DNA of 64,000 bases, taken from NCBI RefSeq assembly GCF_000203915.1, contig NC_008392.1, positions 1,178,001 to 1,242,000 of the forward strand, in the 5' to 3' direction. Positions 27,804 through 62,008 of the stretch are shown in pieces (the stretch's first letter is position 1; each line of letters starts with the position of its first letter). The notes under the pieces were generated by a model, which was given only the letters and a program-made list of their open reading frames with translations, was not told the origin of the DNA and did not search any database. The translations under genes and the position numbers were made by a program. The DNA is from Burkholderia ambifaria AMMD (GTDB taxonomy: Bacteria > Pseudomonadota > Gammaproteobacteria > Burkholderiales > Burkholderiaceae).

Positions 27804-27820
27804 TTAATGGACGTTACCGA

Positions 27821-28775: not shown

Positions 28776-28784
28776 AACACGTCG

Positions 28785-43252: not shown

Positions 43253-43376
43253 GATCGAAACTCTTGGCGGGAAAGCATCAACATACGGCTGCGCGGCGCG
43301 CGACCCAACCAACGATTGCGCATATCGAAACCGCGTCGACGCATAAGCATCGATCGCGACGTTGCAACGCCATCGC

Positions 43377-44432: not shown

Positions 44433-44479
44433 CGGAACTCCAGTCAGGATGGGGGCAGCGGGACGACGACGCGCGACGC

Positions 44480-47975: not shown

Positions 47976-48031
47976 ACGCGGCCCGGTACATGCGCGCCGT
48001 AGACGGCGGGCGGCGGACGGCGGCGCGCGGC

Positions 48032-48742
48032 TCAGTTCTCCGATGAACAACGGACCGACGTCAGCCCGGCCGACTCGAGAGTCCGGATCAGTTGCGGCAG
48101 CATCACGTCGGTGTTGGCCTGCTCGCGCCACTGCACGAGCAGTTCCTCCTCGCGCAGCGCACGCGCGACCGATTCGTGAAAGCCGCGCGTGCGGCACGTG
48201 AATCCCGCGGCGTGCAGCCGGGTCGTCAGCCGCTCGCGCGCCGTCGAGCCGAGTTCGTATTCGACCGTGACCCGCGCCGTCCTGACGCCGCGCAGCCTTT
48301 CCTCGACCAACCGCAGCGGCCACACGACGAGCAATGCGAGCACGAGCCCGAGCGCGCCGAGCGACAACTGGCCGCCGCCGATGCACAGTCCGATCACCGT
48401 GACGAACCACAGCGTCGCTGCCGTGGTCACGCCGGAGACGAGGCCGTCGCGATGCAGAATTGCACCCCCGCCGATGAAGCCCATCCCGGTCAGGATGCCG
48501 AGCGGCAGCCGCATCGGGTCGATCACCGCAAACGCGCCCTCCGGCTTGCCGGCCTGCATCAGCAGCGCATTCACCTGCAGCATCGCCAGGCACGCGGCGA
48601 GGCAGACAAGGATCGTCGTGCGCAGCCCGGCCGTCTTGCCGGCTTCACTGCGATCGAGGCCGACCAGCCCGCCCGCCACGAGCGCCAGCGCGATCCTGAA
48701 GAGGGCATCGGTCCAGTGAAGTACGACCGGCATCGGCTCCAT
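48032..48742 (-). CDS. MgtC/SapB-family membrane protein
   Basis: A 236-residue protein. The N-terminal MgtC domain has about five helices (FRIALALVAGGLVGLDRSEA, GLRTTILVCLAACLAM, GILTGMGFIGGGAILH) and a cytoplasmic ACT-like C-terminal domain (ARVTVEYELGSTARERLTTR). The G-L-R-T and GxGFIGGG motifs are conserved in the family. MgtC proteins help with magnesium limitation and modulate F1Fo-ATPase in several pathogens. The start at 48742 follows GGAGG at five bases. It is divergent from hipB. Confidence 0.88.
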   Translation of the reverse strand: MEPMPVVLHWTDALFRIALALVAGGLVGLDRSEAGKTAGLRTTILVCLAACLAMLQVNALLMQAGKPEGAFAVIDPMRLPLGILTGMGFIGGGAILHRDGLVSGVTTAATLWFVTVIGLCIGGGQLSLGALGLVLALLVVWPLRLVEERLRGVRTARVTVEYELGSTARERLTTRLHAAGFTCRTRGFHESVARALREEELLVQWREQANTDVMLPQLIRTLESAGLTSVRCSSEN

Positions 48743-48865
48743 GCGCGCCTCCATGCAAATCGTCATGCGAGATGCGTCGCGGTACGACCGCGAACGACAC
48801 TCCTGGGACGCAAGGTTCGAGCCCGGCCGCGCGTGCAATGCGCGACGCCACATCACGCCCTCGGC

Positions 48866-49034
48866 GTATCCGATCGGATACGGACATAGCCGCACGTGAG
48901 GATTGAACGCCCCGCCGTTTCCGATCGGGTACGAAAGGACGCGCCGGCTTGCCGTGAACGCATATTCGTTCCCGAACGGATACGAACTGATGCCCGGGCC
49001 GGCGCGTTGTGCCATACTGTTCCCGATCAGATAC
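48866..49034 (+). promoter_or_regulatory. Four hip-type operators at 51-bp spacing
   Basis: Four 16-bp sites lie at 48866-48881 (GTATCCGATCGGATAC, a perfect palindrome), 48917-48932 (GTTTCCGATCGGGTAC), 48968-48983 (GTTCCCGAACGGATAC) and 49019-49034 (GTTCCCGATCAGATAC). Each starts exactly 51 bases after the previous one, about five helical turns. They resemble the E. coli HipB operators (TATCC-N8-GGATA, spaced half-sites). The last ends 17 bp before the hipB ATG, so autorepression by the HipAB complex is expected. Confidence 0.8.
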
Positions 49035-49051
49035 GAAGCACGGAGAACGTC

Positions 49052-49336
49052 ATGTCGGAGCCCCAGTCCGTCGACACGATCGGCGCGCTCGCCCACCTCA
49101 TTCGCGCGACGCGGCTCCAGCAGGGGTTCACGCGCGACGAACTCGCGAACGCGACCGGGCTGTCGCCGAAATTCATCAGCCAGGTGGAAGCCGGCAAGCC
49201 GACCGCGCAAATCGGCAAGGTCATGCTGCTGCTCGGCGAACTCGGCGTGCGCCTGTACGCGGAATCGTCGGTCGAGATTTCGGAAGCCACCGCGCTGAAG
49301 GCCGCGCAACGCCGCAGGAGCGGCCATGGCGGCTAG
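49052..49336 (+). CDS. hipB: HipB-like antitoxin (HTH-XRE)
   Basis: A 94-residue XRE-family DNA-binding protein. The helix-turn-helix is LIRATRLQQGFTRDELAN, ATGLSPKFISQVEAGKPTAQ, and the strand VRLYAESSVEI may form the dimer contact. It should bind the four upstream operators and hold HipA inactive. The ATG at 49052 follows GGAG at seven bases. The stop lies 11 bp inside hipA. Confidence 0.92.
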   Translation: MSEPQSVDTIGALAHLIRATRLQQGFTRDELANATGLSPKFISQVEAGKPTAQIGKVMLLLGELGVRLYAESSVEISEATALKAAQRRRSGHGG

Positions 49337-50630
49337 AACGCTGATCGCGTCCGCCAACGGCGTGCGCATGGGCACGCTGACCGACGACAAAGGTATCTGG
49401 TCGTTCGCGTACGATCCGCAGTGGCTCGCGTCCGCGGCCGCGTACCCGCTGTCGCCGGCGTTCGCGCTGCGCGCGGACACCTTCACCGACACGTCGACCG
49501 ATCGCCCTGTGCAGTGGTTCTTCGACAACCTGCTGCCCGAGGAAGGCATGCGCATGTCGCTCGCCCGCGAGGCGAAGGTCGATGCCGCCGACGCATGGGG
49601 CCTGCTCGCATACTTCGGGCGCGAATCGGCCGGCGCGCTGACGCTGCTCGCCGACGGCGAGCGGGAAGCGCCCGGCAGCCTGCAGCCGCTGTCGCTCGAC
49701 GAACTCGAGCGCCGGATCCAGGCGATGCCCGAGCGCGCGCTGACGGCCACCGCGCCCAAGCGCATGTCGGCGGCCGGCGCGCAGCAGAAGCTGCTGCTGG
49801 TGCTGCGCGGCGACGCGCCCGACTACACGCTGTACGAGCCGGTCGGCAGCGAGCCGTCGATGCATCTGCTCAAGCCGGACATGCGCGCGGCCGGCTACCC
49901 GCACTCGGCGATCAACGAATTCTTCTGCATGAAGCTCGCGAGGAAGATGGGGCTCGACGTGCCCGACGTGCACTTCCTGCGCGCGCCGTCCGCGTGCTAC
50001 GTGATCGACCGGTTCGACCGCGACGTCGCGTCGGCGCCGGCCGGGCGCGTGCATACGATCGACGCGATGCAGTTGCTCAACTACGACCGCGGCTTCAAGT
50101 ACCAGCGGGCGAATGCGCAGGAACTTGCCCGCGCGATCGACCGCACCAGCACGCGCGCGCTGGCGCGCCTGTCGGTGTTCCGCTGGACCGTGTTCAACGT
50201 GGTGGTCGGCAATGCCGACGCGCATCTGAAGAACCTGTCGTTCTTCGTCGACGCGCGCGGCTACCGGCTCGCGCCGTTCTACGACATCGTCAGCACGGTC
50301 GTGTATCACACGCCGACGCACCGGCCCGACCATCGCGGCGATCATTGGCCGCACTGCGAACTGACGATGCCGCTCGGCAACGCGACGCGGTTTGCCGATA
50401 TCGATGTGGATGCGTTGATCGCATTCGGCGAGGCGCTCGGGCTCAGAGGCAAGGCGGCGGCCAGCGAACTGCGGCGCTTTCTCGAGCCGCTCGATCGCCA
50501 CGTCGTGCTGACGCTCGACGAAGTGCGGGAGATCGCGCGGCCGGACGCGGGGGAGATGCGGTTGCTGAATTCGATCGTCGCGATGCCGATCGCGGAGATG
50601 GGGCGGGCGCTTCGGTCGATGCGGGAGTGA
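49326..50630 (+). CDS. hipA: HipA-family serine/threonine kinase toxin
   Basis: A 434-residue HipA kinase. The N-lobe (couple_hipA) includes DRPVQWFFDNLLPEEGMR, and the autophosphorylation/P-loop region reads APKRMSAAGAQQKLLLVL. LLKPDMRAAGYPHSAINEFF, SACYVIDRFDR, NVVVGNADAHLKNLSFF (catalytic Asp and metal Asn) and APFYDIVSTVV (DFG-like Asp) complete the kinase fold. E. coli HipA phosphorylates glutamyl-tRNA synthetase and induces persistence. The reading frame overlaps hipB, as usual. All key residues are intact, so it is probably functional. Confidence 0.93.
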   Translation: MAARTLIASANGVRMGTLTDDKGIWSFAYDPQWLASAAAYPLSPAFALRADTFTDTSTDRPVQWFFDNLLPEEGMRMSLAREAKVDAADAWGLLAYFGRESAGALTLLADGEREAPGSLQPLSLDELERRIQAMPERALTATAPKRMSAAGAQQKLLLVLRGDAPDYTLYEPVGSEPSMHLLKPDMRAAGYPHSAINEFFCMKLARKMGLDVPDVHFLRAPSACYVIDRFDRDVASAPAGRVHTIDAMQLLNYDRGFKYQRANAQELARAIDRTSTRALARLSVFRWTVFNVVVGNADAHLKNLSFFVDARGYRLAPFYDIVSTVVYHTPTHRPDHRGDHWPHCELTMPLGNATRFADIDVDALIAFGEALGLRGKAAASELRRFLEPLDRHVVLTLDEVREIARPDAGEMRLLNSIVAMPIAEMGRALRSMRE

Positions 50631-50702
50631 GCCGGGTTGGGTGGAAAACCGCGCCGGCGGGCACTGCGCTTCGCTGCGGGCCTCCCCTGCCGGGACACCC
50701 GC

Positions 50703-50840
50703 TCAGCGGCGCACCGCGAACGCGTCGACTCCCGTCAGCGCAGCGGAGTGCGCCCATAGACGCTCGGCCGCCTCGGGATCGATCGCGTGCGGCCGCACGC
50801 CGGCCTCCTCGTCGCCGCGCGTGACGACCGCGACATCGCA
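50703..50840 (-). pseudogene. Possible C-terminal remnant of a short-chain dehydrogenase
   Basis: On the minus strand about 45 codons read CDVAVVTRGDEEAGVRPHAI, then DPEAAERLWAHSAALTGVDA before a TGA. The VxPxAxDPxxAxRLWxxSxxLTG pattern is common at the C-terminus of SDR oxidoreductases. No upstream domain is present. It lies in the 241-bp gap between hipA and the nitrile-hydratase activator gene and is probably debris. Confidence 0.35.
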
Positions 50841-50871
50841 AATTCATCGCTGACCGGTGGGCCAGGAAGCG

Positions 50872-52116
50872 TCACGGATGTTCGATGGCCACGAGCGCAT
50901 CGAACGCGTCTCCTTGCGGAAACGCCGCCCACGATTCCGGTCCCGCCTCGATTTCTTCCACCGTCAACAGGCACGCATCGAGTTCGCGGCGCAACCGTTC
51001 GTGATCGATCGACTGCCCGATGAACACGATTTCCTGCCGGCAATCGCCGACCGGCTCCGCCCATTTTTCCAGCACGCCGGCGCGGCGATAGTCGTCGCGC
51101 GGCCAGTCCGACTGCGGCACGAATCGCCACCAGCGGCCGACATAGCCCCACTGGAACCGGCCCCCCGTCTGCACGAGCATGCCGATCTCCTCATGGCGGT
51201 GCGCAGCCCATGCATAGCCCTTGCAGCGAAGTAGCCGGCCATTGGTCCACGGCCGCCTCAGCCAGGCGAGCAGGCGCGCCGGATGAAACGGCGCACGTTC
51301 GCGATAGACCCACGATCCGATTCCGTACGTGTCGGATTCCGACGCTCGTTCGTCGACCTGCATGTGGCGCATCCATCCCGGCGATTCGACGAGCGCCGGC
51401 AGGTCAAAGCGCCGGGTTTCGAGCACGTCCGACGGATCGACTTCACCGTCCTGCATCGGCAGAATCCGCGCGGATGGATTCAACGACGCGAGCACCGCGC
51501 GCAGCCTGTCGAAACCCGCATCGCCGATCCGATCGAATCGGCTGACGAGGACGACGTTCGCATACTCGACCTGTTCGATCAGCAGGTCCGACAGCTTGCG
51601 TGGCTGCCCGGTTTCACTTCCGTTCGAGGCCGGTTCGTCCGACGTGATCATGTCCTCGAACGTCTCGCCGTTGACTACCGTGACGAGCGTATCGAGCCGC
51701 GCGAGTTCGCTGAGGCTGAAGCCGTCGCGATCGAGGAACGCGAACGTCTCCGCGACCGGCATGGGCTCCGAGATTCCAGTCGACTCGATCAGCAGGTAAT
51801 CGAAGCGCTGCTGTCGCGCGAGCGTGCTGACCTGATCGAGCAGATCGGCCCGCAGCGTGCAACAGATGCAGCCGTTGCTCATCTCGACCAGCTCGTCCAC
51901 GCCGCGATGCAGCTCCACGTTGCGTCGCACCTCGTCGGCGTCGACGTTCACTTCGCTCATGTCGTTGACGATCACGGCCACCTTCAGGCCGGCGCGATTG
52001 CGCAGGATGTAATTCAGCAGCGTCGTCTTCCCGGCGCCGAGGAATCCGGACAGTACCGTCACCGGAATCCGCGCCGGCGGGCCGGCCGGCACGGGTTGAT
52101 TCGCCAGCGCATTCAT
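50872..52116 (-). CDS. CobW/P47K-family GTPase, nitrile hydratase activator
   Basis: A 414-residue G3E GTPase. The Walker A motif is SGFLGAGKTTLLNYIL, the metal site is NGCICCTLRADL (CxCC), the ESTGISEP and VSRFDRIGD (NKxD-like) motifs follow and a CobW C-terminal domain occupies residues about 250-400. Such proteins insert iron into Fe-type nitrile hydratases. The ATG overlaps the beta-subunit stop by ATGA, so activator and enzyme are co-translated. It also explains why no small Co-type activator is present. Confidence 0.92.
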   Translation of the reverse strand: MNALANQPVPAGPPARIPVTVLSGFLGAGKTTLLNYILRNRAGLKVAVIVNDMSEVNVDADEVRRNVELHRGVDELVEMSNGCICCTLRADLLDQVSTLARQQRFDYLLIESTGISEPMPVAETFAFLDRDGFSLSELARLDTLVTVVNGETFEDMITSDEPASNGSETGQPRKLSDLLIEQVEYANVVLVSRFDRIGDAGFDRLRAVLASLNPSARILPMQDGEVDPSDVLETRRFDLPALVESPGWMRHMQVDERASESDTYGIGSWVYRERAPFHPARLLAWLRRPWTNGRLLRCKGYAWAAHRHEEIGMLVQTGGRFQWGYVGRWWRFVPQSDWPRDDYRRAGVLEKWAEPVGDCRQEIVFIGQSIDHERLRRELDACLLTVEEIEAGPESWAAFPQGDAFDALVAIEHP

Positions 52117-52766
52117 GCGCGCGTCTCCGGCGCGCGATCCAGGTAGCCTTCGAACAAATCGGCCACGACATAACCGTCGTCGGCGGCGTCGCCCCACAGA
52201 TCCCTCACGCGGAATTCGACGTGATAGGTCGGCTGATGCGCGGCGCCGGTGTCGCCGTGGCCGATCGCGTCCGGGAACGGCCACGATTCGGTCGTCCGGT
52301 GCAGCACGACGCCTGTCTTTCCCCGCACGTAGCCCGGTGCCCGGATGTGTCCGCTCACGTATTCGTCGCGCACGACGACGCGATCGCCGACCTCGAACCG
52401 CGTCGCGCCCGCGGGCGCCGCCCGGCCGACGGAATGCGACGGGTTCGCGAGCCGGAAGTGCGAACCGAGCGCGCGGTCGAGCTCGTCCTGCGTCAGCACG
52501 CCGGTTTCGACGAGCAGCGTCGCGGTCGCGATCACGTAGCGCTCGTAGTAGCGCGTGCCGACATGCTGGCGCACGTCGATCCGTTCGACCGCGTGACGCA
52601 CTTCGTCGACGCTGAACTTTTTCAATTGATCGACACCGACGAACATCAAGCTGTATGCGAGATGTTCCCAGTCTTCCTTGAAGACCGGCTTGTAGCCGAG
52701 GCTGTTGATCGTGTGCGGCACCCGGCCGAAGCCCTGGAATCCGCCGAGGTCGTGAAAGCCGTCCAT
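52113..52766 (-). CDS. nthB: Nitrile hydratase beta subunit
   Basis: A 217-residue beta subunit. The N-terminus MDGFHDLGGFQGFGRV is diagnostic, and the SH3-like C-terminal domain holds FEVGDRVVVRDEYVSGH, then RAPGYVRGKTGVV and YHVEFRVRDLWGD. It lacks catalytic metal but contributes the Arg residues that stabilise the modified cysteines of the alpha subunit. It lies 44 bp after the alpha gene. The start at 52766 is set by the MDGFHD sequence. Confidence 0.96.
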   Translation of the reverse strand: MDGFHDLGGFQGFGRVPHTINSLGYKPVFKEDWEHLAYSLMFVGVDQLKKFSVDEVRHAVERIDVRQHVGTRYYERYVIATATLLVETGVLTQDELDRALGSHFRLANPSHSVGRAAPAGATRFEVGDRVVVRDEYVSGHIRAPGYVRGKTGVVLHRTTESWPFPDAIGHGDTGAAHQPTYHVEFRVRDLWGDAADDGYVVADLFEGYLDRAPETRA

Positions 52767-52810
52767 CTGTGATCTCCGAAATGAAGGTCGATAAGGGAAT
52801 GCGGCGCGGA

Positions 52811-53410
52811 TCAGCTCGCGCGCGGTAGCGCGACGCCGATCAGCACGTCCTTCGTGACAAGCGTTCGCAGTTGTTCCTCGGTCATGTGCCCGGTGCCGGC
52901 GGGACGCACGGGCAGCACCAGGTAGCGGCTTTCGGCCGTCGTGTCCCACACCTTCACGACGACGTCGTCGGGCAAGTCGGTACCGAGTTCGCGCAGCACC
53001 GTGCGCCCCTCGCGGACGAGCCGCGCGCGGTATTCGAACCCCTTGTACCACTCGGGCGGCAGCCCAAGCACCGGCCAGTTCGTGCACGAGCACAGGCTGC
53101 AGACGATCACGTTCTTCAGCGTCGGCGTATCTTCGAGCGCGACGATGTATTCACCCTGCGGGCCGGTGTAGCCGAACTGCGCGCACGCGGCGGTACCGTC
53201 CTTCAATAGCAGCTCGCGAAACCCCGGATCGACCCACGCACGCGCGACGATCCGCGCGCCGTTGGCCGGGTCCCAGGTCGTCGACATCAGTTCCGTCAGG
53301 CCTTCTATATAGCCGTCCGGGATCAGGTTTTTCTCTTTCATCACGCGAAACAGCGCCCAGGCGCGTTCGCCGGGTGTCGATGCTGTTTCTGCAGAGTGGT
53401 TCGCGCTCAT
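52811..53410 (-). CDS. nthA: Nitrile hydratase alpha subunit, iron type
   Basis: A 199-residue alpha subunit that binds the metal and hydrates nitriles to amides. The metal claw is VCSLCSC with Cys104, Cys107, Ser108 and Cys109; the Ser after the first Cys marks the Fe-type (Co-type has Thr). The downstream region CTNWPVLGLPPEWYKGFEYR closely follows well-known Pseudomonas Fe-type enzymes. The start (MSANHSAET) is set by the ATG at 53410 with GAGGAG-like sequence upstream. It is divergent from the channel and aldoxime dehydratase genes. Confidence 0.96.
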   Translation of the reverse strand: MSANHSAETASTPGERAWALFRVMKEKNLIPDGYIEGLTELMSTTWDPANGARIVARAWVDPGFRELLLKDGTAACAQFGYTGPQGEYIVALEDTPTLKNVIVCSLCSCTNWPVLGLPPEWYKGFEYRARLVREGRTVLRELGTDLPDDVVVKVWDTTAESRYLVLPVRPAGTGHMTEEQLRTLVTKDVLIGVALPRAS

Positions 53411-53831
53411 CGTGGGGCTCCTCGTGGGGGTTCGGGTCGACCGCCGCCACGCCGCTGCTTCCCTGGCGGGGCGGGACACGTCGTATCGGTCACGCTCGAC
53501 GAGTAGGTTAAGAAGAGAAAAAGCGCGGTTCTTTGCCGGCACGGATCGGAAACTGTGCTGAGACGGATCCGACACCTGCCTTTATTGCGACTGCATGGCA
53601 TCGACGGCAGAGGCCCGCCACAGCCAATTTCTTGTTCCGCCGGAAAACAGAATCGCGGATTTTGCCTCCCTATTCTCATCCTCAAGCGACGGCCGTTCGG
53701 TGTCGCGAATCGTCGGCGCACCCGATGCGCCGATGGATAACAGCGTGCAGCACACCACGACTCCGGCGTCCGGGCGCGCGTGCGTCGCACATCGGACGCG
53801 ATGGTTTCTGCGCATCCAGGCAAGGGGCATG
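53411..53831. promoter_or_regulatory. Divergent promoter region of the aldoxime-nitrile cluster
   Basis: 421 bp separate nthA from the channel gene. AT-richer parts near 53500-53530 (GTTAAGAAGAGAAAAAGC) and 53640-53690 may carry the two promoters and the site for the AraC regulator encoded at 57592. No coding region is supported here. Confidence 0.4.
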
Positions 53832-54725
53832 ATGGACAACGTCAACAGAATGAAACTGAAGCGAATCGCGCACTGGATCGGCGCATCGCTGCTAGTCGTC
53901 GCGTCGCATTACGCGGGCGCGGTCGAGGTCGATCCCGGCGACTACGAGCAGTACCCGGTCGGCGCGACGATCGGCGTGCTGTATTACAACTATTCGGCGA
54001 CGAACGCGTACTACGCGAACGGCAGCAAGACATCGAATTTCGACCTGCAGTCGAACATCGGCATCGCGCGGCTGCTGCACGTATTCCAGCTGACCGACCG
54101 GCTGACGATCGATCCGCAGGTGCTGCTGCCGTTCGGCCACGTGAGCGGCTTCGGCAATGCGAGCGCGCTCGGCAGCACGACCGGCGTCGGCGACGTGATT
54201 CTGACCGCGCCGCTGAAATTCCGCCTGAACGAAGCGAAGGACGTGATCGCCGCAACCGTCTACCTGTATGCGCCGACCGGAAGCTACGACCAGAACCGCG
54301 GCCTGAATCTCGGCGCGAACCGCTGGTCGCTCGACTTCCAGGCCGCGTACGTGAAGCATTTCTCGGCGAAGTGGGCGCTCGACCTCGTCGGCGACGCGAT
54401 CTGGTACGGCAACAACACGTCGTACGGCGCAAGCGGTGCGACGCTGCATCAGCGGATGAGCTACAGCGCGCAGGCGATGGTTCGCTACATGCCTGATCCA
54501 GGCACATCGCTCGGCTTAGGGATCACGCAATTCTGGGGCGGCGAAACGCGCGTCGACGGTGTCGACGGCCATGACGCGCTGCGCACGACGCGGATGCGGC
54601 TGACCGCGTCGAAGTTCGTGACGAAGGCCGACCAGGTACAGGTCCAGCTCGGCACCGACCTGAGCGTGCGCAACGGGCCGAAGAACAGCCTGCTCGTCGG
54701 CCTGCGTTACGCGCACATCTTCTGA
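53832..54725 (+). CDS. Outer-membrane channel-like protein (phenol MetA-pathway/transporter family)
   Basis: A 297-residue protein with a signal peptide (MKLKRIAHWIGASLLVVASH ... YAGA, cleaved before VEVDPGDY) and alternating amphipathic strands that end in YAHIF. The EVDPGDY, LTDRLTIDPQVLLPFGHVSG, TGVGDVILTAPLKF segments are typical of the Phenol_MetA_deg outer-membrane family linked to aromatic uptake. It probably admits the aldoxime or nitrile. The start is uncertain between 53829, 53832 and 53850; AAGGGG lies just upstream. The aldoxime dehydratase gene follows 98 bp downstream. Confidence 0.87.
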   Translation: MDNVNRMKLKRIAHWIGASLLVVASHYAGAVEVDPGDYEQYPVGATIGVLYYNYSATNAYYANGSKTSNFDLQSNIGIARLLHVFQLTDRLTIDPQVLLPFGHVSGFGNASALGSTTGVGDVILTAPLKFRLNEAKDVIAATVYLYAPTGSYDQNRGLNLGANRWSLDFQAAYVKHFSAKWALDLVGDAIWYGNNTSYGASGATLHQRMSYSAQAMVRYMPDPGTSLGLGITQFWGGETRVDGVDGHDALRTTRMRLTASKFVTKADQVQVQLGTDLSVRNGPKNSLLVGLRYAHIF

Positions 54726-54823
54726 CGATGAGCCGGCGCCGGGTTCTGCTTCCGGCGCATATCGATTCGTTTTACCGACAGTTGATTCGTCGACACCCGA
54801 CTCCCTTTCCAATGAGGCCATGC

Positions 54824-55876
54824 ATGGAATCCGCAATCGATAAACACCTGGTCTGCCCGCGCACGCTGTCACGCCGTGTCGCCGACGACTACCAGCCGCC
54901 GTTCCCGATGTACGTCGCCCGTGCGGCGGAAGACCTGAGCCAGGTCGTGATGGGCTATTTCGGCGTGCAGTATCGCGGCGCCGACCAGCGCTCCGTCGCA
55001 CTGGCCGCGCTGCGCCGGATCGTCGCCGATTTCGATGCGCCGGACGGCCCGGGCAATCATGATCTGACGCAGCACACCGACAACCAGGGCTACGACAATC
55101 TGATCGCCGTCGGCTATTGGCGCGACCCTGACGCATACGCGCGCTGGATCGCGTCGCCGGCGGTCGCCGAATGGTGGGCATCCGACGCGCGGCTCGCGGA
55201 CGGCATCGGCTATTTCCGCGAGATCGTCGCGCCGCGCGCGGAGCAGTTCGAGACGCTGTACGCGTTCACGAACGATTTTCCCGGTGTCGGCTCGATCATG
55301 GACGGCGTCAGTGGCGAGATCGAGGAACACGGTTACTGGGGGTCGATGCGCGACCGGTTCCCGATTTCGCAAACCGACTGGATGCATGCGGACGGCGAAT
55401 TGCGGATCGTCGCGGGTGACCCGGCGCGCGGCGGCCGCGTGGTCGTGCTGGCGCACGACAACATCGCGCTGATCCGTTCCGGGCAGGACTGGCGTGCGGC
55501 CGAAGACGACGAACGACGGCTGTATCTCGACGAGATCGAGCCGACGCTTCGCAGCGGGATGGACTTCCTGCGCGACAACGGTGTCGACGTCGGCTGCTAT
55601 AGCAACCGCTACGTGCGGTCGATCGATCTCGACGGCAATCTGCTCGACGAGAGTTACAACATCGGCCACTGGCGCTCGCTCGACCGCCTCGAGCGATGGG
55701 CGGAGTCGCATCCGACTCATCTTCGGATCTTCGTCACGTTCTTTCGCGTCGTCACCGGGCTTTCGAAGCTGCGGCTGTATCACGAGGTGTCCGTATTCGA
55801 CGCGAAACATCAGGTCTACGAATACGTGAACTGCCATCCGACAACCGGGATGATGCGCGACGCCGTCGCCCGCTGA
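54824..55876 (+). CDS. oxd: Aldoxime dehydratase (heme-containing, Oxd family)
   Basis: A 350-residue heme enzyme that dehydrates aldoximes to nitriles without using a redox partner. With the start at ATG 54824 (GAGG seven bases upstream) the residues known from OxdA and OxdRE fall at exactly the published positions: Arg178 (RDRFP), Ser219 (LIRSGQ), proximal heme ligand His299 (HPTHLRIF) and distal His320 (LYHEV). This agreement supports both function and start. It is followed by an amidase and the AraC regulator, and is divergent from the nitrile hydratase genes. Confidence 0.97.
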   Translation: MESAIDKHLVCPRTLSRRVADDYQPPFPMYVARAAEDLSQVVMGYFGVQYRGADQRSVALAALRRIVADFDAPDGPGNHDLTQHTDNQGYDNLIAVGYWRDPDAYARWIASPAVAEWWASDARLADGIGYFREIVAPRAEQFETLYAFTNDFPGVGSIMDGVSGEIEEHGYWGSMRDRFPISQTDWMHADGELRIVAGDPARGGRVVVLAHDNIALIRSGQDWRAAEDDERRLYLDEIEPTLRSGMDFLRDNGVDVGCYSNRYVRSIDLDGNLLDESYNIGHWRSLDRLERWAESHPTHLRIFVTFFRVVTGLSKLRLYHEVSVFDAKHQVYEYVNCHPTTGMMRDAVAR

Positions 55877-55933
55877 ATCGTGCCGGCGCCGCGCAGTGCG
55901 GGCGGCGCCTCCTTACCGAACTGGAGAACGTCG

Positions 55934-57460
55934 ATGGCCATCAAACGCCCGACCCGCGAACAACTTTCCGACATCGCAGCCGGCTTCGGCTTTCATGTCG
56001 ATGCCCGGCAGCTCGCCGATTACGACGACGCGCTGCAGGCGAATTTCGACGCGTACGACGCGATCGACGCGCTGCCCGACTATCTGCCGACCATCGCGTA
56101 TCCGCGCACGCCCGGCTACCGCCCGGAAGGCGACGAAAACCGTTATGGCGCGTGGGCGCGCAAGAGCACGATCCACGGCGCCGCCGACGGCAAGCTGCGC
56201 GGCAAGACCGTGGCCGTGAAAGACAACATCTGCGTCGGCGGCGTGCCGATGCGCAACGGCGCGAGCACGTTCGAGGGTTACGTGCCCGACGTCGACGCGA
56301 CTGTCGTCACGCGGATGCTCGACGCCGGTGCGACGATCGCGGGCAAGTCGACCTGCGAGTACTACTGCTTTTCCGGCGGCTCGCATACGAGCGCGTCCGG
56401 GCCCGTGCTCAATCCGCGCAAGGCCGGACATTCGGCCGGCGGTTCGTCGTCCGGCAGCGGTGCGCTGATCGCGAGCGGCGAAGTCGACATGGCGCTCGGC
56501 AGCGATCAGGGCGGCTCGGTGCGGATTCCGTCCGCGTATTGCGGTGTCTACGGAATGAAGCCGACGCACGGCCTGGTCCCGTATACCGGCGCCATGCCAA
56601 TCGAGGCGACCGTCGACCACCTCGGGCCGATGACGGGCAACGTGCTCGACAACGCGCTCTTGCTCGACGTGATCGCCGGTGACGACGGGCTCGACCCGCG
56701 CCAGCGGGCGCTGCCGCCGCGCGCCGACTATCTCGGTGCGATCCGGGACGGCATCGCCGGCCTGCGGATCGGCATCCTGCGCGAAGGGTTTGGACTCGCG
56801 AATTCGGAGGCGGTCGTCGACGAGGCCGTGCTCGTCGCCGCGCACCGGTTGCGCCAGCTTGGCGCGAAGGTCGACGAGGTATCGGTGCCGTTGCATGCGG
56901 CCGGAACGGCGATCTGGCTGCCGATTGCCGCCGAAGGCGCGACTCAGCAGATGATGAAGGGCAACAGCCACGGCTTCAACTGGGGCGGCCTGTACGTGAC
57001 CGGCATGATCGATCATCACGCGGGCTGGCGCGAGCGTGCCGACGAGCTGCCGGATACCGTCAAGGTGACGATGCTGCTCGGAGAGTATTTCACGAGCCGG
57101 TATCGCGGCCGCTATTACGCGAAGTGCCAGAACCTCGCACGGCGGCTGCGGGCGGATTACGACACGGCCCTGCAATCGTATGATCTTTTGTTGATGCCGA
57201 CCGTGCCGATACGCGCGTCGAAACTGCCGGAGCCCGGTTGCGCGATGTCCGAATCGCTGACGCGCGCGTTCGAGATGCTCGCGAATACGGCACCGTTCGA
57301 CGTATCCGGACATCCGGCAATGTCGCTTCCCTGCGGGATCGCGGAAGATCTACCGATCGGGCTGCAACTGGTCGGGCGTCGCTTCGACGAGGCGACGATC
57401 TATCGGTGCGCCTATGCGTATGAACAGTCGTCCGACTGGCGCCAGACGACGTTCGCATGA
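55934..57460 (+). CDS. Amidase (amidase-signature family)
   Basis: A 508-residue Ser-cisSer-Lys hydrolase that cleaves the amide made by the nitrile hydratase to acid and ammonia. The triad is visible: Lys96 (VAVKDNIC), the cis-Ser of GGSSSGSG (171-173) and nucleophile Ser195 (SDQGGSVRIP). The segment SAYCGVYGMKPTHGLVPYTG is typical of amidases clustered with nitrile hydratases. The start follows GGAG. The gene begins 57 bp after oxd. Confidence 0.94.
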   Translation: MAIKRPTREQLSDIAAGFGFHVDARQLADYDDALQANFDAYDAIDALPDYLPTIAYPRTPGYRPEGDENRYGAWARKSTIHGAADGKLRGKTVAVKDNICVGGVPMRNGASTFEGYVPDVDATVVTRMLDAGATIAGKSTCEYYCFSGGSHTSASGPVLNPRKAGHSAGGSSSGSGALIASGEVDMALGSDQGGSVRIPSAYCGVYGMKPTHGLVPYTGAMPIEATVDHLGPMTGNVLDNALLLDVIAGDDGLDPRQRALPPRADYLGAIRDGIAGLRIGILREGFGLANSEAVVDEAVLVAAHRLRQLGAKVDEVSVPLHAAGTAIWLPIAAEGATQQMMKGNSHGFNWGGLYVTGMIDHHAGWRERADELPDTVKVTMLLGEYFTSRYRGRYYAKCQNLARRLRADYDTALQSYDLLLMPTVPIRASKLPEPGCAMSESLTRAFEMLANTAPFDVSGHPAMSLPCGIAEDLPIGLQLVGRRFDEATIYRCAYAYEQSSDWRQTTFA

Positions 57461-57591
57461 TGAGCCGGGCCCGCCGGCGCACCCTTTCGCGTCGGCGGCC
57501 AATGCGGCGCGGGTTTCGACCGGGTTGGACAACGCGTTTTTGAACGGGCACGCTACTCGCTGCCGTTTGCTTATCCATGTGGGGCACGATC

Positions 57592-58635
57592 ATGACAACA
57601 CCTTCGATCCCTCCCTTCCCTGGTTGCGACGACTTCGCCCTCGCGTCAGGCGGTGCGCCGTTCGAATGGACGCGTTCGTCGATCGAGGTCGCGACCGACG
57701 GCTCTGTCAGCCAGCGCATCGAATTCTGGCGCGAGATGATCCTGCGCCTGTTTGCGGATGTGCAGATCGCGGCCGTCCAGAAAGACGATTTCTTTGGCCG
57801 GGTGCGGCAGCGCAAGTGCGACAAGCTGCGGATCTCGGATATCCACGCGAGCGAGCAGGCGGTGACCCGGCGCTTTCGTCAGGCGCGTAGCGAGTACGAG
57901 GACAAGTATTTCGCGGTACTGATGCTCGAGGGTAGCCAGTCGGTCGAACAGGACGGCAAGATCGTCACACTGCGTCCCGGTGATTTCGCGGTGTATGACG
58001 CGACCAGGCCGCATCACCTGCAGTTCGGCCAGTCGTGGCGCGAAATCGTCGTCAGCATTCCGCGCACGACGCTCAACCAGCTCGTCGTCGGGATGGAGCA
58101 CCGTACCGCTTGCCCGATGCCGACCGGGCAAGGCGTCGGCTACGTGATGCGCGGGTTTCTCGAACAGATGTCGTCGCAGATCCGCCACGTGTCCGAGGAA
58201 GAGATGCTGCAGTTGTCGGATACCGCGATCTCGCTGATCGCGATGACAATCGGGAGCCTGCAGCGCAACGACGTCGCGCAGTCGCGGATGAAGGCGCTGA
58301 CGCTCACGCGCGTGAAACGGCATCTGCTCGAACATCTGCGCGACCCGGACTTGAACCCCACGATGGTCGAGCAGGCGACCGGGATATCGTCGCGGTACAT
58401 CAACAAGCTGTTCGAGGCGGAGAACACCTCGCTGATGCGCTACATATGGAACCTGCGGCTCGAACGGTGCGCGGAAGATCTCGCGAATCCGCAATGCGGG
58501 GTGCTGCGTGTGTCCGACATCGCGTTGCGCTGGGGATTCAACGACATGTCGCATTTCAGCCGGGCGTTCCGCGAACGGTTCGCGGTGGCGCCGCGCGCGT
58601 GGCGCCGGCAAGGTGGTGCGGAGGCGGCGAGTTGA
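57592..58635 (+). CDS. AraC-family regulator of the aldoxime-nitrile cluster
   Basis: A 347-residue regulator. The N-terminal AraC_binding_2 domain (about 35-210: DFFGRVRQRKCDKLRISDIH, LRPGDFAVYDATRPHHLQFG) matches the FeaR/NphR/OxdR type. The C-terminal helix-turn-helix units lie at NPTMVEQATGISSRYINKLF and VLRVSDIALRWGFNDMSHFS. The ATG at 57592 has GGGG upstream; ATG 57577 is an alternative. OxdR-type proteins activate aldoxime dehydratase clusters, so it should sense an aldoxime or nitrile. Confidence 0.92.
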   Translation: MTTPSIPPFPGCDDFALASGGAPFEWTRSSIEVATDGSVSQRIEFWREMILRLFADVQIAAVQKDDFFGRVRQRKCDKLRISDIHASEQAVTRRFRQARSEYEDKYFAVLMLEGSQSVEQDGKIVTLRPGDFAVYDATRPHHLQFGQSWREIVVSIPRTTLNQLVVGMEHRTACPMPTGQGVGYVMRGFLEQMSSQIRHVSEEEMLQLSDTAISLIAMTIGSLQRNDVAQSRMKALTLTRVKRHLLEHLRDPDLNPTMVEQATGISSRYINKLFEAENTSLMRYIWNLRLERCAEDLANPQCGVLRVSDIALRWGFNDMSHFSRAFRERFAVAPRAWRRQGGAEAAS

Positions 58636-58838
58636 CGGTGTGGCGGTGTGCCGGTTCCCCGCCGATCCGATTGTCGGTATTCGCTATGGAGAGCGCTCCG
58701 CGCCTGAGGCACCTTTCATCGATGCCGAGGCGTTTTTGTTTCGATGTATCAGGATAAGTATTCTTATCACAACACCTCGATCACCGAGCAAAACTCGAGC
58801 GCACCGAACCACGTCAGATGTGGCCGGCACGCACGAAC

Positions 58839-59051
58839 TCACCTGCCGATCGGCAGCCCCGTCGGCTCGATCCACCCGAGCCGGTACGCGATCAGCAGCG
58901 ACAGGAACAGCGTGATCGACAATCCGACGCGCGCCGCGAGCGACCACGCCATCCGCTTGCTTCTGCCGCGGTCGTGATTCATGAAATACAGCGCGAAAAT
59001 CAGGCTTCCGATAATCAGCGCGAACGCCACCGAAACCAGCGCAATCTTCAT
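58839..59051 (-). CDS. DUF2909 twin-transmembrane protein
   Basis: A 70-residue inner-membrane protein with two helices (ALVSVAFALIIGSLIFALYF and VGLSITLFLSLLIAYRLGWI) joined by a basic loop (NHDRGRSKRMAW). The layout matches DUF2909, often encoded near cytochrome oxidase assembly genes in proteobacteria. Its ATG overlaps the stop of the preceding gene by ATGA. Function is unknown. Confidence 0.85.
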   Translation of the reverse strand: MKIALVSVAFALIIGSLIFALYFMNHDRGRSKRMAWSLAARVGLSITLFLSLLIAYRLGWIEPTGLPIGR

Positions 59052-59398
59052 CGTTGATGCTCCTCCAGGCCCGAATCGGCCTTCAGCAGTTCAGTCAGTC
59101 TTTGCCGCTCGGCAGCGACGTCGGCCACACCCGACGCCGGCCAGTCGAGCGCCACGCCATTGCCCAGCGAATCGCGCACGAGCGTCTGGTAACGCCGGTC
59201 GCTGATTCGCCCGTCGTCCATCGCCTCCGAGATCTCATGTCGAAACGGTAGCGGAAAGCTCGCGTATGCGCGCGACAGCGCCGCATATTGCCGCGCGTCG
59301 ATCTCCTTCGACGACGGCACGACGGCCCACACGACGACGGCCACGATGGCTGCGAAAGGAATCGCCGTGTAGCGGAGAACGAACTTGATCGGGGTCAT
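59048..59398 (-). CDS. Small membrane-anchored hypothetical protein
   Basis: A 116-residue protein with one N-terminal helix (FVLRYTAIPFAAIVAVVVWA) and a soluble charged rest (YASFPLPFRHEISEAMDDGR, LTELLKADSGLEE). The start at 59398 opens MTPIKFVLRY. It is coupled to the DUF2909 gene. No known domain is recognised. Confidence 0.7.
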   Translation of the reverse strand: MTPIKFVLRYTAIPFAAIVAVVVWAVVPSSKEIDARQYAALSRAYASFPLPFRHEISEAMDDGRISDRRYQTLVRDSLGNGVALDWPASGVADVAAERQRLTELLKADSGLEEHQR

Positions 59399-59572
59399 GA
59401 GGCGGATATCGAAGTAACGACGACGTAGCGGGGAAAATAGCGGCGAAGTCACGCCGCACGGACGGCGCACCTGGGCCGCGTGGAACCGGATGCCGCCCGC
59501 GCAAGCCACGGCCGGCAGCGGCCTGCCGACATGGCAGACATTGTACTTAAAGCCCCATTGGGCTAACAGAGT

Positions 59573-59591
59573 ATGATAATGTCATTATCAT
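59573..59591. promoter_or_regulatory. 19-bp palindrome upstream of the YoaK gene
   Basis: ATGATAATG-T-CATTATCAT is a perfect dyad around one central base. It overlaps a TATGAT that could be a -10 element and resembles metal-responsive operators (Fur/Zur-like, ATAAT/ATTAT halves), though its spacing is not the classical one. It lies between the 59398 and 59713 genes and may serve either. Confidence 0.5.
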
Positions 59592-59712
59592 GTCTCACAG
59601 ATGATTCGAGCAACCCGGCCCCCTTTGCCGGTGGCCCGCGCGGGCGCCTGACACCTGACACCGGTGTCGGTCGTCCTGTCCGTGCCCGCCATCCGGGCGA
59701 TTGAGTATCCCT

Positions 59713-60471
59713 ATGCCAGCGCAGTACTTTCGAAGCCTCACCGGAAAACACCGCAGCGCGACCGCGAACCGTCAGCTCGGCTTTTCGCTGGCCTTCGTCG
59801 CGGGCGCGGCCAACGCCGGCGGCTACCTGGCGGTCAAGCAATACACGTCGCACATGAGCGGCATCGTGTCGGCGATCGCCGACCAGACGGCGCTCGGCGA
59901 CATCCAGCTCGCGCTGGCCGGCATCAGTTCGCTGGGGTCGTTCCTGATCGGCGCCAGCTGCTCGGCGATCCTCGTCAACTGGGGGCGGCGCCGCGGCCTG
60001 CAGAGCCAGTTCGTGCTGCCGCTGCTGGTCGAAGCCGTGCTGCTGCTCCTGTTCGGGCTGCTCGGCAGCCATCTCGCGCTGTGGGAAACGTTCTTCGTGC
60101 CGGTCACGGTCACGCTGCTGTGCTTCATCATGGGTCTGCAGAACGCGACGATCACGAAGCTGTCGGGCGCGGAAATCCGCACGACACACGTGACCGGCAT
60201 CGTGACCGACCTCGGCATCGAGCTCGGCAAGCTGTTCTACTGGAATCGCTCGGCCGTCGACGTGGACGCGCACGCGGTGATCGCCAACCGTTCCAAACTG
60301 AGGATTCACGCGACGATGCTCGCGTCGTTCTTCGTCGGCGGGCTCGCCGGCGCGATCGGCTTCAAGCATGTCGGCTACGTGGTGACCGTGCCGCTCGCCT
60401 GCCTGCTCGTGATGCTCGCGGCGATGCCGCTGATCGACGACCTGCTTGCGTGGCTCGAACGCCGGCGTTGA
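59713..60471 (+). CDS. DUF1275 (YoaK-family) membrane protein
   Basis: A 252-residue inner-membrane protein with about six helices. The opening QLGFSLAFVAGAANAGGYLA, the AVKQYTSHMSGIVSAIADQT segment and FIMGLQNATITKLSGAEIRT-THVTG are conserved DUF1275 features. Function is unknown; some members are linked to metal or stress conditions. The start is uncertain (TTG 59701 is an alternative). A perfect palindrome 120 bp upstream may control it. Confidence 0.88.
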   Translation: MPAQYFRSLTGKHRSATANRQLGFSLAFVAGAANAGGYLAVKQYTSHMSGIVSAIADQTALGDIQLALAGISSLGSFLIGASCSAILVNWGRRRGLQSQFVLPLLVEAVLLLLFGLLGSHLALWETFFVPVTVTLLCFIMGLQNATITKLSGAEIRTTHVTGIVTDLGIELGKLFYWNRSAVDVDAHAVIANRSKLRIHATMLASFFVGGLAGAIGFKHVGYVVTVPLACLLVMLAAMPLIDDLLAWLERRR

Positions 60472-60494
60472 GCCGGCGCACACGCTGCAACGGC

Positions 60495-60532
60495 GCATTC
60501 GGCGCTGGCGCCGAATGCGGATGCATTATAAT
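60495..60532 (+). promoter_or_regulatory. Promoter with overlapping palindromic operator for the RHH gene
   Basis: GCATTCGGCGC-TG-GCGCCGAATGC (60495-60518) is a perfect 11-bp inverted repeat. Nine bases on lies TATAAT (60527-60532), a consensus -10 element. The palindrome covers the expected -35 position, so a bound repressor would block polymerase. The ribbon-helix-helix gene 32 bp downstream may encode that repressor. The same repeat could also fold as a hairpin at the end of the YoaK transcript. Confidence 0.6.
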
Positions 60533-60563
60533 TTGATTAACATATCGACCACCCTGCCGCACG

Positions 60564-60749
60564 ATGGAAACGAAAACCGCCCGCCTGACCGTCCTGATCG
60601 ATCCCGCCAAGAAAGAAGCGTTCGAAATGCTCTGCGCGGAGCAGGATCTCACGCCGTCGCAAGTCGTGCGTCAGTTGATCCGCGAGTATCTCGACAAGCA
60701 CGGCGTCACGTACAAGACGAAGAGCGTGCTCGGCAAGCGGATGAAGTAA
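60564..60749 (+). CDS. Ribbon-helix-helix (CopG-like) DNA-binding protein
   Basis: A 61-residue protein. The strand TARLTVLIDPAKKEAFEMLC pairs with a helix and then LTPSQVVRQLIREYLDKHGV forms the second helix, as in CopG/Arc-type repressors. The basic tail KTKSVLGKRMK may add DNA contact. No toxin gene follows on the same strand. It probably represses its own promoter at the palindrome upstream. Confidence 0.85.
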   Translation: METKTARLTVLIDPAKKEAFEMLCAEQDLTPSQVVRQLIREYLDKHGVTYKTKSVLGKRMK

Positions 60750-60782
60750 CGCGGCAGAACCCGCACCGCGATCAGGTGCAGC

Positions 60783-61619
60783 TCAGGTGCAGATTTCCCA
60801 TCGCGGGTGTTCACGCGCGCGCCACACGAGCCGCTCGGGAGCGATGCCCTCCCCTTCCTTCATGCGCCGGGCGGTGGGCGACAGCTTGAGCTCGCCGGCC
60901 GACGCGAACCCCAGCGCGCGTTCGAGCAGGATGCGCAGCGACGGCAGCGGGTTGCCGTTCTTCCACGCGAACGCGATGAAGTTGTTGTCGTCGCCGCACG
61001 GCAGCAGCGCATACGAAGCGTCGAACACCTCGCGCAATTGCGCGAGATGCCGCGGCAACGCCGGATCGTCGTCCATGAAATTGATCGCGAGCACGCCCGT
61101 TTCGCTCAGCCGCGCACGGCACGCGTCGAAAAAGGCGGCGCCCGTGCAGCGGCCCGGCATGCCGTCGGCGACGAACGCGTCGTGCAGGATCACGTCGGCC
61201 TTGACCTCCGGCCGGCCGACGTAGTCCGCGCCATCCGCGCAGATCACGGCGAAGCGCGCGTCGTCTTGCGGAATCCTGAACACGTCGCGCAGCGCGATTA
61301 CGTCCGGGTTGATCTCGACCGCGTCGATCGCCGTATCGGGCAGGTGCCGATAGCAGTACTTCGCCAGCGACCCGCCGCCGAGCCCGATCATGCAGATGCG
61401 CGCGGGCGCCGGCTGCAGCAGCAGGAAACCCATCATCACGCGCGTATAGCCGAGTTCGAGCCGGACCGGATCCTTCAGCGACATGAAGCTCTGCGTGCCG
61501 AAGTGGTCGAAGTGCAGCGAGACCGTGTGCTTGGTCTCGAGCACGAACGGGCGGCCGTCGTTCAATGGCATTGCCAGAAACCGCACGAATGCGTCATAGG
61601 AAATTCGATCCTCGCTCAT
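60783..61619 (-). CDS. Spermidine synthase-like protein (SAM-binding Rossmann fold)
   Basis: A 278-residue protein with the nucleotide-binding motif MIGLGGGSLAKYCYRHLPD, the acidic strand end AIDAVEINPDVI and the segment DVILHDAFVADGMPG. These match the speE/class I methyltransferase fold used by polyamine synthases and related orphan enzymes. The usual polyamine-binding aromatic/acidic set is only partly visible, so true polyamine activity is doubtful. The start at 61619 opens MSEDRISYDAF. Confidence 0.85.
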   Translation of the reverse strand: MSEDRISYDAFVRFLAMPLNDGRPFVLETKHTVSLHFDHFGTQSFMSLKDPVRLELGYTRVMMGFLLLQPAPARICMIGLGGGSLAKYCYRHLPDTAIDAVEINPDVIALRDVFRIPQDDARFAVICADGADYVGRPEVKADVILHDAFVADGMPGRCTGAAFFDACRARLSETGVLAINFMDDDPALPRHLAQLREVFDASYALLPCGDDNNFIAFAWKNGNPLPSLRILLERALGFASAGELKLSPTARRMKEGEGIAPERLVWRAREHPRWEICT

Positions 61620-61663
61620 GGTCGGCAGCCCGGTAGTCGGAGAGTCGGTCGAACCGCGCGCGG

Positions 61664-62008
61664 TCAGACCTTCTTCAGGTAGCACGCCTTCAGCATGAAG
61701 CCGCCCATGTCGGTCTTGCAATCGACTTCGTGATCGCCGCCGACGAGCCGGATGCTCTTGACCTTGGTGCCCATCTTCAACGTGATCGACGAGCCCTTCA
61801 CGCGCAAGTCCTTGATCAGCACGACCGAATCGCCGTCCGACAGCACGTTGCCGTTCGCGTCCTTGACGACGTCGCCGGCCGGTTCGTCGCCGGCGTCCGC
61901 GCCGGCACCGGCCGACCATTCATATCCGCAGTCCGCGCACACGGTCAGCGTGCCGTCCGGGTAGGTGTTTTCCATCGCGCATTGCGGGCAGGCGGGGGCG
62001 GCGTTCAT
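61664..62008 (-). CDS. yjdM: YjdM/PhnA-family zinc-ribbon protein
   Basis: A 114-residue protein with an N-terminal zinc ribbon (CPQCAMENTYPDGTLTVCADC) and a C-terminal PhnA beta domain (VVKDANGNVLSDGDSVVLIK, DLRVKGSSITLKMGTKVKSI, CKTDMGGFMLKACYLKKV). It was formerly linked with phosphonate uptake by name only. The start at 62008 was chosen by the MNAAPACPQC match; ATG 62020 is an alternative. Confidence 0.92.
   Translation of the reverse strand: MNAAPACPQCAMENTYPDGTLTVCADCGYEWSAGAGADAGDEPAGDVVKDANGNVLSDGDSVVLIKDLRVKGSSITLKMGTKVKSIRLVGGDHEVDCKTDMGGFMLKACYLKKV

Follow-up and report, generated by a model that had tools for sequence, protein, structure and literature searches.

How can a catabolic pathway whose genes lie in two arms pointing away from each other be switched on as a single unit? 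The question is raised by the window, a 64,000-nucleotide stretch of the Burkholderia ambifaria AMMD genome, in which, as a preliminary description had stated, a full gene set for the conversion of an aldoxime, through nitrile and amide, to an acid is split between two divergent arms and accompanied by a regulator of the AraC family. The seven genes that it had placed at 50872–58635 were all found there, intact. The genes for the CobW protein and for nitrile hydratase (NHase) beta and alpha run leftward, the latter nearest the centre, whereas those for the channel, dehydratase (oxd), amidase, and AraC protein run rightward, and two mirrored modules lie between the arms (Table 1). The pathway itself is ordinary and its enzymes are already known; the mirror-image promoter modules, apparently confined to this cassette, are the new detail. 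Considering the gene content, catalytic residues, layout, modules, restriction of the modules to the cassette, their tie to the regulator, and an empty site in relatives, all of which were read from the sequence, we regard it as probable (roughly 0.75) that this is an inducible aldoxime–nitrile catabolic cassette, in which one FeaR-like regulator switches both arms via the two modules.

Table 1. Genes, putative regulatory modules, and colinear segment in the window (positions are those of the window)
Feature	Position	Strand	Remarks
Segment colinear with Burkholderia catarinensis (96.4%)	50850..58736	.	Between hipA-like gene and DUF1275-side flank
CobW/COG0523-family GTPase, probable Fe-type NHase activator (414 aa)	50872..52116	-	PF02492 + PF07683
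Nitrile hydratase beta subunit (217 aa)	52113..52766	-	TIGR03888 above cut-off
Fe-type nitrile hydratase alpha subunit (199 aa), motif CSLCSCT	52811..53410	-	TIGR01323 above cut-off
Putative promoter/operator module N (78 bp), faces NHase arm	53492..53569	-	3' end 82 bases from NHase-alpha ATG
Putative promoter/operator module C (78 bp), mirror copy of N, faces channel–oxd arm	53612..53689	+	3' end 143 bases from channel ATG
Outer-membrane beta-barrel channel (297 aa), Phenol_MetA_deg family	53832..54725	+	PF13557
Haem aldoxime dehydratase, OxdA type (350 aa)	54824..55876	+	PF13816; NF050090
Amidase-signature amidase (508 aa)	55934..57460	+	PF01425; NF005565 851.7 bits, cut-off 545
AraC-family regulator (352 aa), FeaR-like, last gene of channel–oxd arm	57577..58635	+	PF14525 + PF12833

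The dehydratase could be aligned end to end with OxdA (3W08) and OxdRE (3A15). When its start is set at 54824, Arg178, Ser219, His299, and His320, which we take, as the preliminary description did, to be the catalytic positions, stand at exactly those numbers and are thus conserved. The protein also scored above the cut-off of the NCBIfam aliphatic aldoxime dehydratase model (OxdA, NF050090; 686.5 bits against 600). In NHase alpha subunits, the claw reads CSLCSC-T in the Fe type and CTLCSC-Y in the Co type; a residue check and motif census of the alpha subunit encoded here gave VCSLCSCTN, that is, the Fe-type claw followed by T. Its best solved matches were 2QDY and 2AHJ (Rhodococcus, Fe-type), with the best Co-type chain approximately 83 bits behind, and that of the beta subunit was the Fe-type Rhodococcus NHase 2AHJ_B. 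The genes for the beta subunit and a CobW-type activator are adjacent, and the metal is predicted to be iron. The cobW ATG, with its start computed, overlaps the NHase-beta stop by 4 bases. The closest NCBIfam model of the CobW protein, the ZigA-like NF038288, gave 499 bits, below its cut-off of 600, and this was counted against the preferred reading. Amidase-signature enzymes use a Ser-cisSer-Lys triad, and the amidase here keeps K95, S170, and S194 (numbered without the initial Met), presumably that triad, and matches the Rhodococcus amidase 3A1K with 481 bits. Residues 32–297 of the channel match the solved structure 4RL8 (368 bits), and its N-terminus, judged by eye, resembles a signal peptide. 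No second Oxd or second NHase alpha was found elsewhere in the genome at E ≤ 0.001. Contig C2 carries five CN_hydrolase-family matches.

The divergent split is real, but it is not the distinctive feature for which it had been taken, being normal for its clade: of the 12 Burkholderia genomes carrying a close oxd, 11 showed the layout, as did one Paraburkholderia. Divergence together with two mirrored modules occurred in the window and in 11 of 14 other genomes (oxd identity of at least 77%, fetched with flanks), the exceptions (G141, G251, and G055) having NHase on the oxd strand. The aldoxime–nitrile clusters of Pseudomonas contain the same enzymes (oxd 68–76% identical; NHase alpha 76–85% in the Fe-type ones) in the order oxd–channel–amidase–NHase alpha–beta, with CobW in the Fe-type ones. 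Their enzyme genes run in one direction, as had been expected, in all 29 loci fetched, whereas the window has two divergent arms, a FeaR-like regulator at the end of one of them, and two mirrored modules. The idea that the channel had been added to the Burkholderia set did not survive the comparison, since clusters of this kind usually include one: a homologue (tblastn E ≤ 1e-5, covering 35% or more of the query) was present in 55 of 80 related loci, and 28 of the 29 Pseudomonas loci have it between oxd and amidase. In Pandoraea terrae LMG 30175 (L050), the channel, oxd, amidase, Fe-type NHase, CobW, and AraC are all homologous to those of the window (73–86%), but the genes run in one direction and a single module lies upstream of the channel gene. 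The clusters of Rhodococcus (OxdRE 3A15, NHase 2AHJ, amidase 3A1K) share the three enzymes, including an Fe-type NHase, whereas the two loci compared (L071 and L120) gave no match for a channel and encode an AraC protein of another type (25–26%). Within the genus, PMC6829993 reports a Burkholderia cluster that contains both nitrile hydratase (Bcen_4082-85) and phenylacetaldoxime dehydratase (Bcen_4078-81).

The modules were located by aligning the intergenic region of 12 genomes. In all 12, the plus-side block was an inverted copy of the minus-side block, with local alignment scores of 30–61 that were reached by none of the 300 letter shuffles per genome. In the window, modules N and C are 57.7% identical over 78 ungapped bases, and the maximum identity in shuffled sequences was 46.2% at the same offset (5000 shuffles) and 51.3% when every offset was allowed (200 shuffles). 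In a set of 100 loci, a profile built from block N alone found block C in all 11 companion loci (E 0.0011–0.32), together with one unrelated site at E 0.72; the reciprocal profile from block C found block N in 10 of 11 (E 0.0004–0.74), missing L031, and gave an unrelated site at E 0.59. Single matches to these one-block profiles have weak E-values, a point against the preferred reading. Over 24 module copies, 25 columns were invariant. All 28 aligned modules have TA..CT at columns 60–65, a plausible candidate for the −10 element, and columns 36–41, at approximately the −35 location, read A.AGAA rather than TTGACA, which fits an activated promoter; both assignments are predictions. A consensus scan of the divergent promoter region gave no consensus sigma-70-like site, which also counts against the preferred reading, and inspection of the module by eye gave no sigma-54-type spacing. 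The conserved columns may include leader sequence in addition to the operator.

The regulator had been described as OxdR-like, which did not hold: its identity to the AraC proteins encoded near the Pseudomonas clusters is only 24–30%, with the exception of L072, and an orthologous relationship to those regulators was ruled out on these values. The L072 protein is 53% identical to the regulator in the window and of the same type. An AraC-family gene lies near the cluster in 28 of the 29 Pseudomonas loci, the short contig L060 showing none, and these proteins (L072 left out) are 56–100% identical to that of L054. In P. chlororaphis B23, the cluster is reportedly under positive control by NhpR. 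Against the FeaR model NF007243, the regulator in the window scored 186.8 bits, short of the equivalog cut-off of 199, and it is therefore FeaR-like but not assigned as FeaR itself.

The distribution of the modules was examined with a pattern of 16 bases drawn from them, with the reversed pattern as a control. In its own 7.53-Mb genome, with up to two mismatches, the pattern matched exactly twice, at its source sites and in opposite orientations, and the control did not match; a regulon extending beyond the cassette was therefore ruled out at this threshold. Across 65 Burkholderia genomes, with no more than one mismatch, two matches occurred in each of the 11 genomes with the divergent cassette, one in the co-directional G141, one stray in G205, and none in the other 52, and the control matched once, in G353. 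Among 80 named loci, the module (E ≤ 0.001) was detected in all 12 with an AraC protein at least 64% identical and in none of the 68 others, although the profile was built from genomes including eight of the 12 positive loci, so that only the four co-directional ones were out of sample (weakest match: L052, E 4.6e-5). The module was present in two copies in the eight divergent loci and in one copy in the four co-directional loci. Loci with a more distant AraC protein of the same type (51–55%; L072, L075, and L107) had no module at E ≤ 0.001. By their titles, the 12 module-bearing loci are all Burkholderiaceae, and the tie between module and regulator may instead reflect the common descent of the cassette. 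In L046 (B. seminalis), araC is split over two frames and both modules are kept, so that, barring a sequencing error, this locus has retained the module although its regulator gene is not plainly intact.

These observations bear on whether the modules are AraC operators. They might be plain promoter elements, or sites of a general regulator (for nitrogen or stress control), as their −10-like element and the retention of both copies in L046 would allow, but a general regulator should have more sites. The confinement of the pattern to the cassette in its own genome, its occurrence in the genus only with the cassette apart from one stray match, and the correspondence of module presence with AraC type make this reading improbable. 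A less remote alternative, although still one that we doubt, concerns the origin of the likeness, which may have arisen by independent selection for the same regulator rather than by promoter duplication when the NHase arm turned. Modules N and C within one genome are on average 58% identical, whereas module C and the single modules of relatives are 71% identical, in agreement with separate selection; however, the similarity is ungapped over 78 bases and extends beyond the stretch upstream of the −10-like element, which speaks against it.

The preliminary description had also suggested an auxin as the product. The set from oxime to acid is complete, indole-3-acetaldoxime is accepted by OxdRG of Rhodococcus and OxdB of Bacillus (PMC8955678), and the same proposal is already in print for a Burkholderia oxd/nthAB cluster (PMC6829993). 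However, the Oxd here passes the aliphatic model, the Pseudomonas enzyme OxdK shows very little activity toward indole-3-acetaldoxime (PMC8955678), and no sequence feature pointing to indole substrates was found. The NHase of P. chlororaphis, moreover, accepts n-alkyl nitriles, whereas phenylacetonitrile and isovaleronitrile are not substrates (PMC8955678). The conversion of an indole aldoxime into auxin is thus not favoured, and we consider it quite unlikely; because isovaleronitrile is among the nitriles not used, "aliphatic" is itself a guess.

Under the preferred reading, that of a catabolic cassette with both arms under one FeaR-like regulator, an aldoxime, more likely aliphatic than indolic, would cross the outer membrane through the PF13557 channel and be dehydrated to the nitrile by the haem enzyme OxdA. 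The CobW-type GTPase would load the Fe-type NHase, which would hydrate the nitrile to the amide, and the amidase would free the acid and ammonia for use as carbon and nitrogen. In this scheme, the substrates, metabolic direction, metal, and induction are all predictions. The two promoters are probably weak and are probably turned on simultaneously when the FeaR-like AraC protein, aided by a pathway-derived inducer, binds both mirrored modules, each of which would overlap the −35 region of the promoter facing one arm; this binding is predicted from co-occurrence. Because the oxd arm ends with araC, the regulator would also amplify itself.

The segment shared with B. catarinensis (Table 1) was probably inserted as one unit. 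The empty site, lacking the cassette, is present in relatives, and, judged by the flanks, the cassette occupies at least nine sites in 12 genomes, suggesting that it moves as a unit. A search for a target-site duplication at the insertion gave only 8-base matches, at chance level. We lean slightly toward a broader scenario, in which the cassette moves between sites and carries a dedicated switch, formed by its FeaR-like activator and the two mirrored modules, with unlike AraC regulators serving elsewhere and with Fe- and Co-type NHases swapped in an otherwise constant cassette. The module would have been copied in mirror image when the NHase genes came to face oxd, so that one regulator would still fire both halves. 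The useful part of the findings is a sharp, testable account of regulation, in which two 78-bp boxes are tied to one type of regulator. If true, this account would provide an inducible system for Oxd and NHase that is self-contained and has two arms, and it would illustrate simply how an operon may be split while its co-regulation is kept.

The seven genes of the cassette are all intact and lie where the preliminary description had placed them, on contig C4 (1,281,472 bases) of a 7.53-Mb genome in four contigs. The nitrile hydratase (NHase) arm is probably one transcript, because the cobW start overlaps the NHase beta stop by 4 bases. The haem aldoxime dehydratase (Oxd), whose nearest named relative is in Burkholderia catarinensis (97%), aligned end to end with OxdA (3W08) and OxdRE (3A15), scored 686.5 bits against the model for aliphatic aldoxime dehydratase, above its cut-off of 600, and contained R178, S219, H299, and H320 at exactly those positions. 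The NHase alpha subunit carried the motif CSLCSCT, and its best solved matches were Rhodococcus Fe-type enzymes, with the best Co-type chain approximately 83 bits behind; the beta subunit aligned with 2AHJ_B over 212 residues. The amidase was nearest to the Rhodococcus amidase 3A1K and retained Lys95, Ser170, and Ser194 (numbered without the initial Met), and residues 32–297 of the channel protein could be aligned to 4RL8, a barrel of solved structure. No second Oxd or second NHase alpha was detected in the genome at E ≤ 0.001. The cluster had been observed correctly and is of a known kind; auxin, which had been suggested as a product, is not favoured.

Features of the cassette and of the left half of the window (window positions)
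Feature	Position	Strand	Remark
cobW	52116–50872	minus	
NHase beta	52766–52113	minus	
NHase alpha	53410–52811	minus	
Module N	53492–53569	minus	78 bases, ungapped alignment with C
Module C	53612–53689	plus	78 bases, ungapped alignment with N
Channel gene	53832–54725	plus	
oxd	54824–55876	plus	
Amidase gene	55934–57460	plus	
araC	57577–58635	plus	
Transposase-like HTH domain proteins	25408–26898, 27065–27730		
GAD-like/Tdi1-type immunity protein	27821–28486	minus	
TssF	28692–29924		matches only model positions 241–608 of 608

Gene layouts were compared with tblastn in 80 named loci encoding an Oxd relative, the best 80 of 88 found; distant Oxds are under-sampled in this set because the search used exact words of the window's own Oxd. 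A channel homologue was located inside the fetched locus in 55 of the 80, on the same strand as oxd in 54, and between oxd and the amidase gene in 28 of 29 Pseudomonas loci (the exception being L063). The channel gene is therefore a normal member of the cluster, not the addition it had been taken for. NHase alpha was encoded on the oxd strand in 64 loci, on the opposite strand in 11, and was absent from five. Eight of the 11 opposite-strand loci had the window layout, seven of them in Burkholderia and one in Paraburkholderia sp. BL25I1N1; the remaining three, two from Gordonia and one from Sphingobium, showed no channel gene. Among 65 Burkholderia genomes, 13 had an Oxd match at E ≤ 1e-30; in 12 of these, the window counted, the identity to the query was at least 86%, and 11 of the 12 had the divergent layout (all except G141). 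The divergence noted earlier is thus real, but it is normal for its clade. In trees of a chosen subset (33–35 of 81 rows), the nine divergent clusters included grouped together for Oxd (95/89), amidase (99/100), and NHase alpha (88/94), the last falling below the star threshold of the tree tool.

In the cluster of Pandoraea terrae (L050), whose NHase is of the Fe type, every gene points the same way, and Burkholderia sp. BCC0506 (L049), Paraburkholderia lacunae (L051), and P. heleia (L052) encode NHases on the oxd strand with a Co-type motif (CTLCSC-Y). The channel, oxd, amidase, and regulator of L049, L050, and L051 are 73–87% like those of the window, and the metal type of the NHase differs between these close relatives (Co-type in L049 and L051, Fe-type in L050). 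Five loci with Oxd relatives (L059, L064, L101, L112, and L122) contained no NHase alpha within the fetched locus; a different enzyme may act on their nitriles.

The alignment of the gap between the NHase alpha and channel genes in 12 genomes (the window and companion loci L023–L033) revealed a pair of conserved blocks with a spacer between them that varies in length, and the NHase-side block in reverse complement resembled the channel-side block. Local alignment of each genome's own two blocks scored 30–61, a score reached by none of 300 letter shuffles per genome. In the window, modules N and C were 57.7% identical; the shuffle maximum was 46.2% at the same offset (5000 shuffles) and 51.3% over all offsets (200 shuffles). 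A profile built from N only found C in all 11 companion loci (E 0.0011–0.32), with one unrelated site at 0.72, and a C-only profile recovered N from all of these but L031 (10 of 11; E 0.0004–0.74), with unrelated sites beginning at E 0.59. Twenty-five columns were invariant over 24 modules, and 21 over 28 when the single modules of four co-directional relatives were added. All modules had TA..CT at columns 60–65, a plausible −10 element, and columns 36–41, about where a −35 element would lie, read A.AGAA, as would be expected in an activated promoter; a consensus promoter scan of the region found nothing. The mean identity was 0.895 among N modules, 0.889 among C modules, and 0.583 between N and C within a genome. 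Because C was closer to the single modules than N was (0.706 versus 0.578), C seems to be orthologous to the lone promoter found in the co-directional relatives, and N may be a copy that is older or has changed faster, or else a site of independent origin.

The pattern GNTCCG-N7-ANAGAA-N7-TTTT-N7-TA, which was derived from the modules, matched only its two source sites in the genome of the window with up to two mismatches (reversed control, 0). With up to one mismatch in the 65 Burkholderia genomes, it matched a pair of oppositely oriented sites in every one of the 11 divergent-cassette genomes, one site in G141, one stray in G205, and none in 52; the reversed pattern matched once, in G353. 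The distance between paired sites (window 53548–53633 and counterparts in 10 genomes) was 86–87 bases in three genomes, 169–171 in six, 189 in one, and 222 in one; the difference between 86 and 170 corresponds to roughly eight turns of the helix, perhaps by chance.

A two-block profile was positive at E ≤ 0.001 in 12 of the 80 named loci and in none of the other 68, with two copies in all eight loci with the window layout and one in each of four co-directional loci. The training set took in the eight divergent loci, and the co-directional loci, which lay outside it, scored E 1.1e-15 to 4.6e-5. The 12 positive loci were exactly those with an AraC protein at least 64% identical to that of the window, an association that could also reflect shared descent of the whole cassette.

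The window's AraC protein was 64–95% identical to those of the 12 named Burkholderiaceae loci, 51–55% to those of three loci (L072, L075, and L107), and 23–30% to the remaining 56 found; none was shown in nine of the 80 loci. It had been called OxdR-like, which did not hold: it is FeaR-like, although not filed as FeaR because it scored 186.8 bits against a cut-off of 199, and is 24–30% identical to the AraC proteins of Pseudomonas clusters (excluding L072 and L060), which are themselves 56–100% identical to that of L054. The same enzyme set therefore runs under different AraC types. NhpR is the regulator of the P. chlororaphis B23 cluster. In B. seminalis LMG 24067 (L026 and L046), the tblastn match to araC was divided between two frames, with an overlap of the pieces, indicating either a broken gene or a sequencing error, and both modules were still present.

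The window and B. catarinensis (L023) had 50850–58736 in common at 96.4%, and nothing else within window 47001–62000. In six genomes (L144–L149), picked from flank matches for the nearness of the two flanks, matches to the hipA-like gene and the DUF1275-side flank were 153–243 bases apart; five lacked an Oxd match, and the sixth (G234) had the cassette elsewhere on the same contig. The flanks were approximately 19 kb apart in others such as G193 (C23, 69936–89009), which has no Oxd match, so the site is variable and the hipA–DUF1275 interval may be an insertion hotspot. When 3-kb flanks were compared (matches of at least 200 bases), four of the 12 divergent-cassette genomes (L026, L027, L028, and L030) shared flanks and the other eight shared none with any other, giving at least nine cassette sites by this test. 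No target duplication was seen at the insertion and no recombinase gene within the cassette itself; in place of transfer, rearrangement and the loss of a copy present in the ancestor may explain these sites.

Elsewhere in the window, G+C per 2 kb was 0.58–0.65 in 1–36000 versus 0.64–0.70 in 36001–64000, and the left half could represent a genomic island of its own. The region 25408–29924 may be what is left of a type VI secretion locus. A pyruvate dehydrogenase E1, E2, and E3 set with a lipoyl domain on E3 (4600–10895) is adjoined by AraC and Lrp/AsnC regulators, and a TauD-type dioxygenase, an NMT1-type binding protein, and an ABC ATPase in a row (42302–45406) are likely a set for the uptake and use of sulfonate or related compounds.

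In print, aldoxime–nitrile clusters and their proposed plant roles are reviewed (PMC8955678); a Burkholderia NHase (Bcen_4082-85) and phenylacetaldoxime dehydratase (Bcen_4078-81) are placed in the same genomic cluster, with auxin formation proposed (PMC6829993); aldoxime dehydratase clusters are picked up by a rhizosphere predictor (PMC12462448); and a term search of PMC11568032 did not return the word Burkholderia. A search of titles and abstract openings, with subscription journals mostly outside it, found nothing on how the Burkholderia cluster is laid out or on its operators. What merits testing in the cluster is its mirrored promoter pair, which is tied to this cassette.
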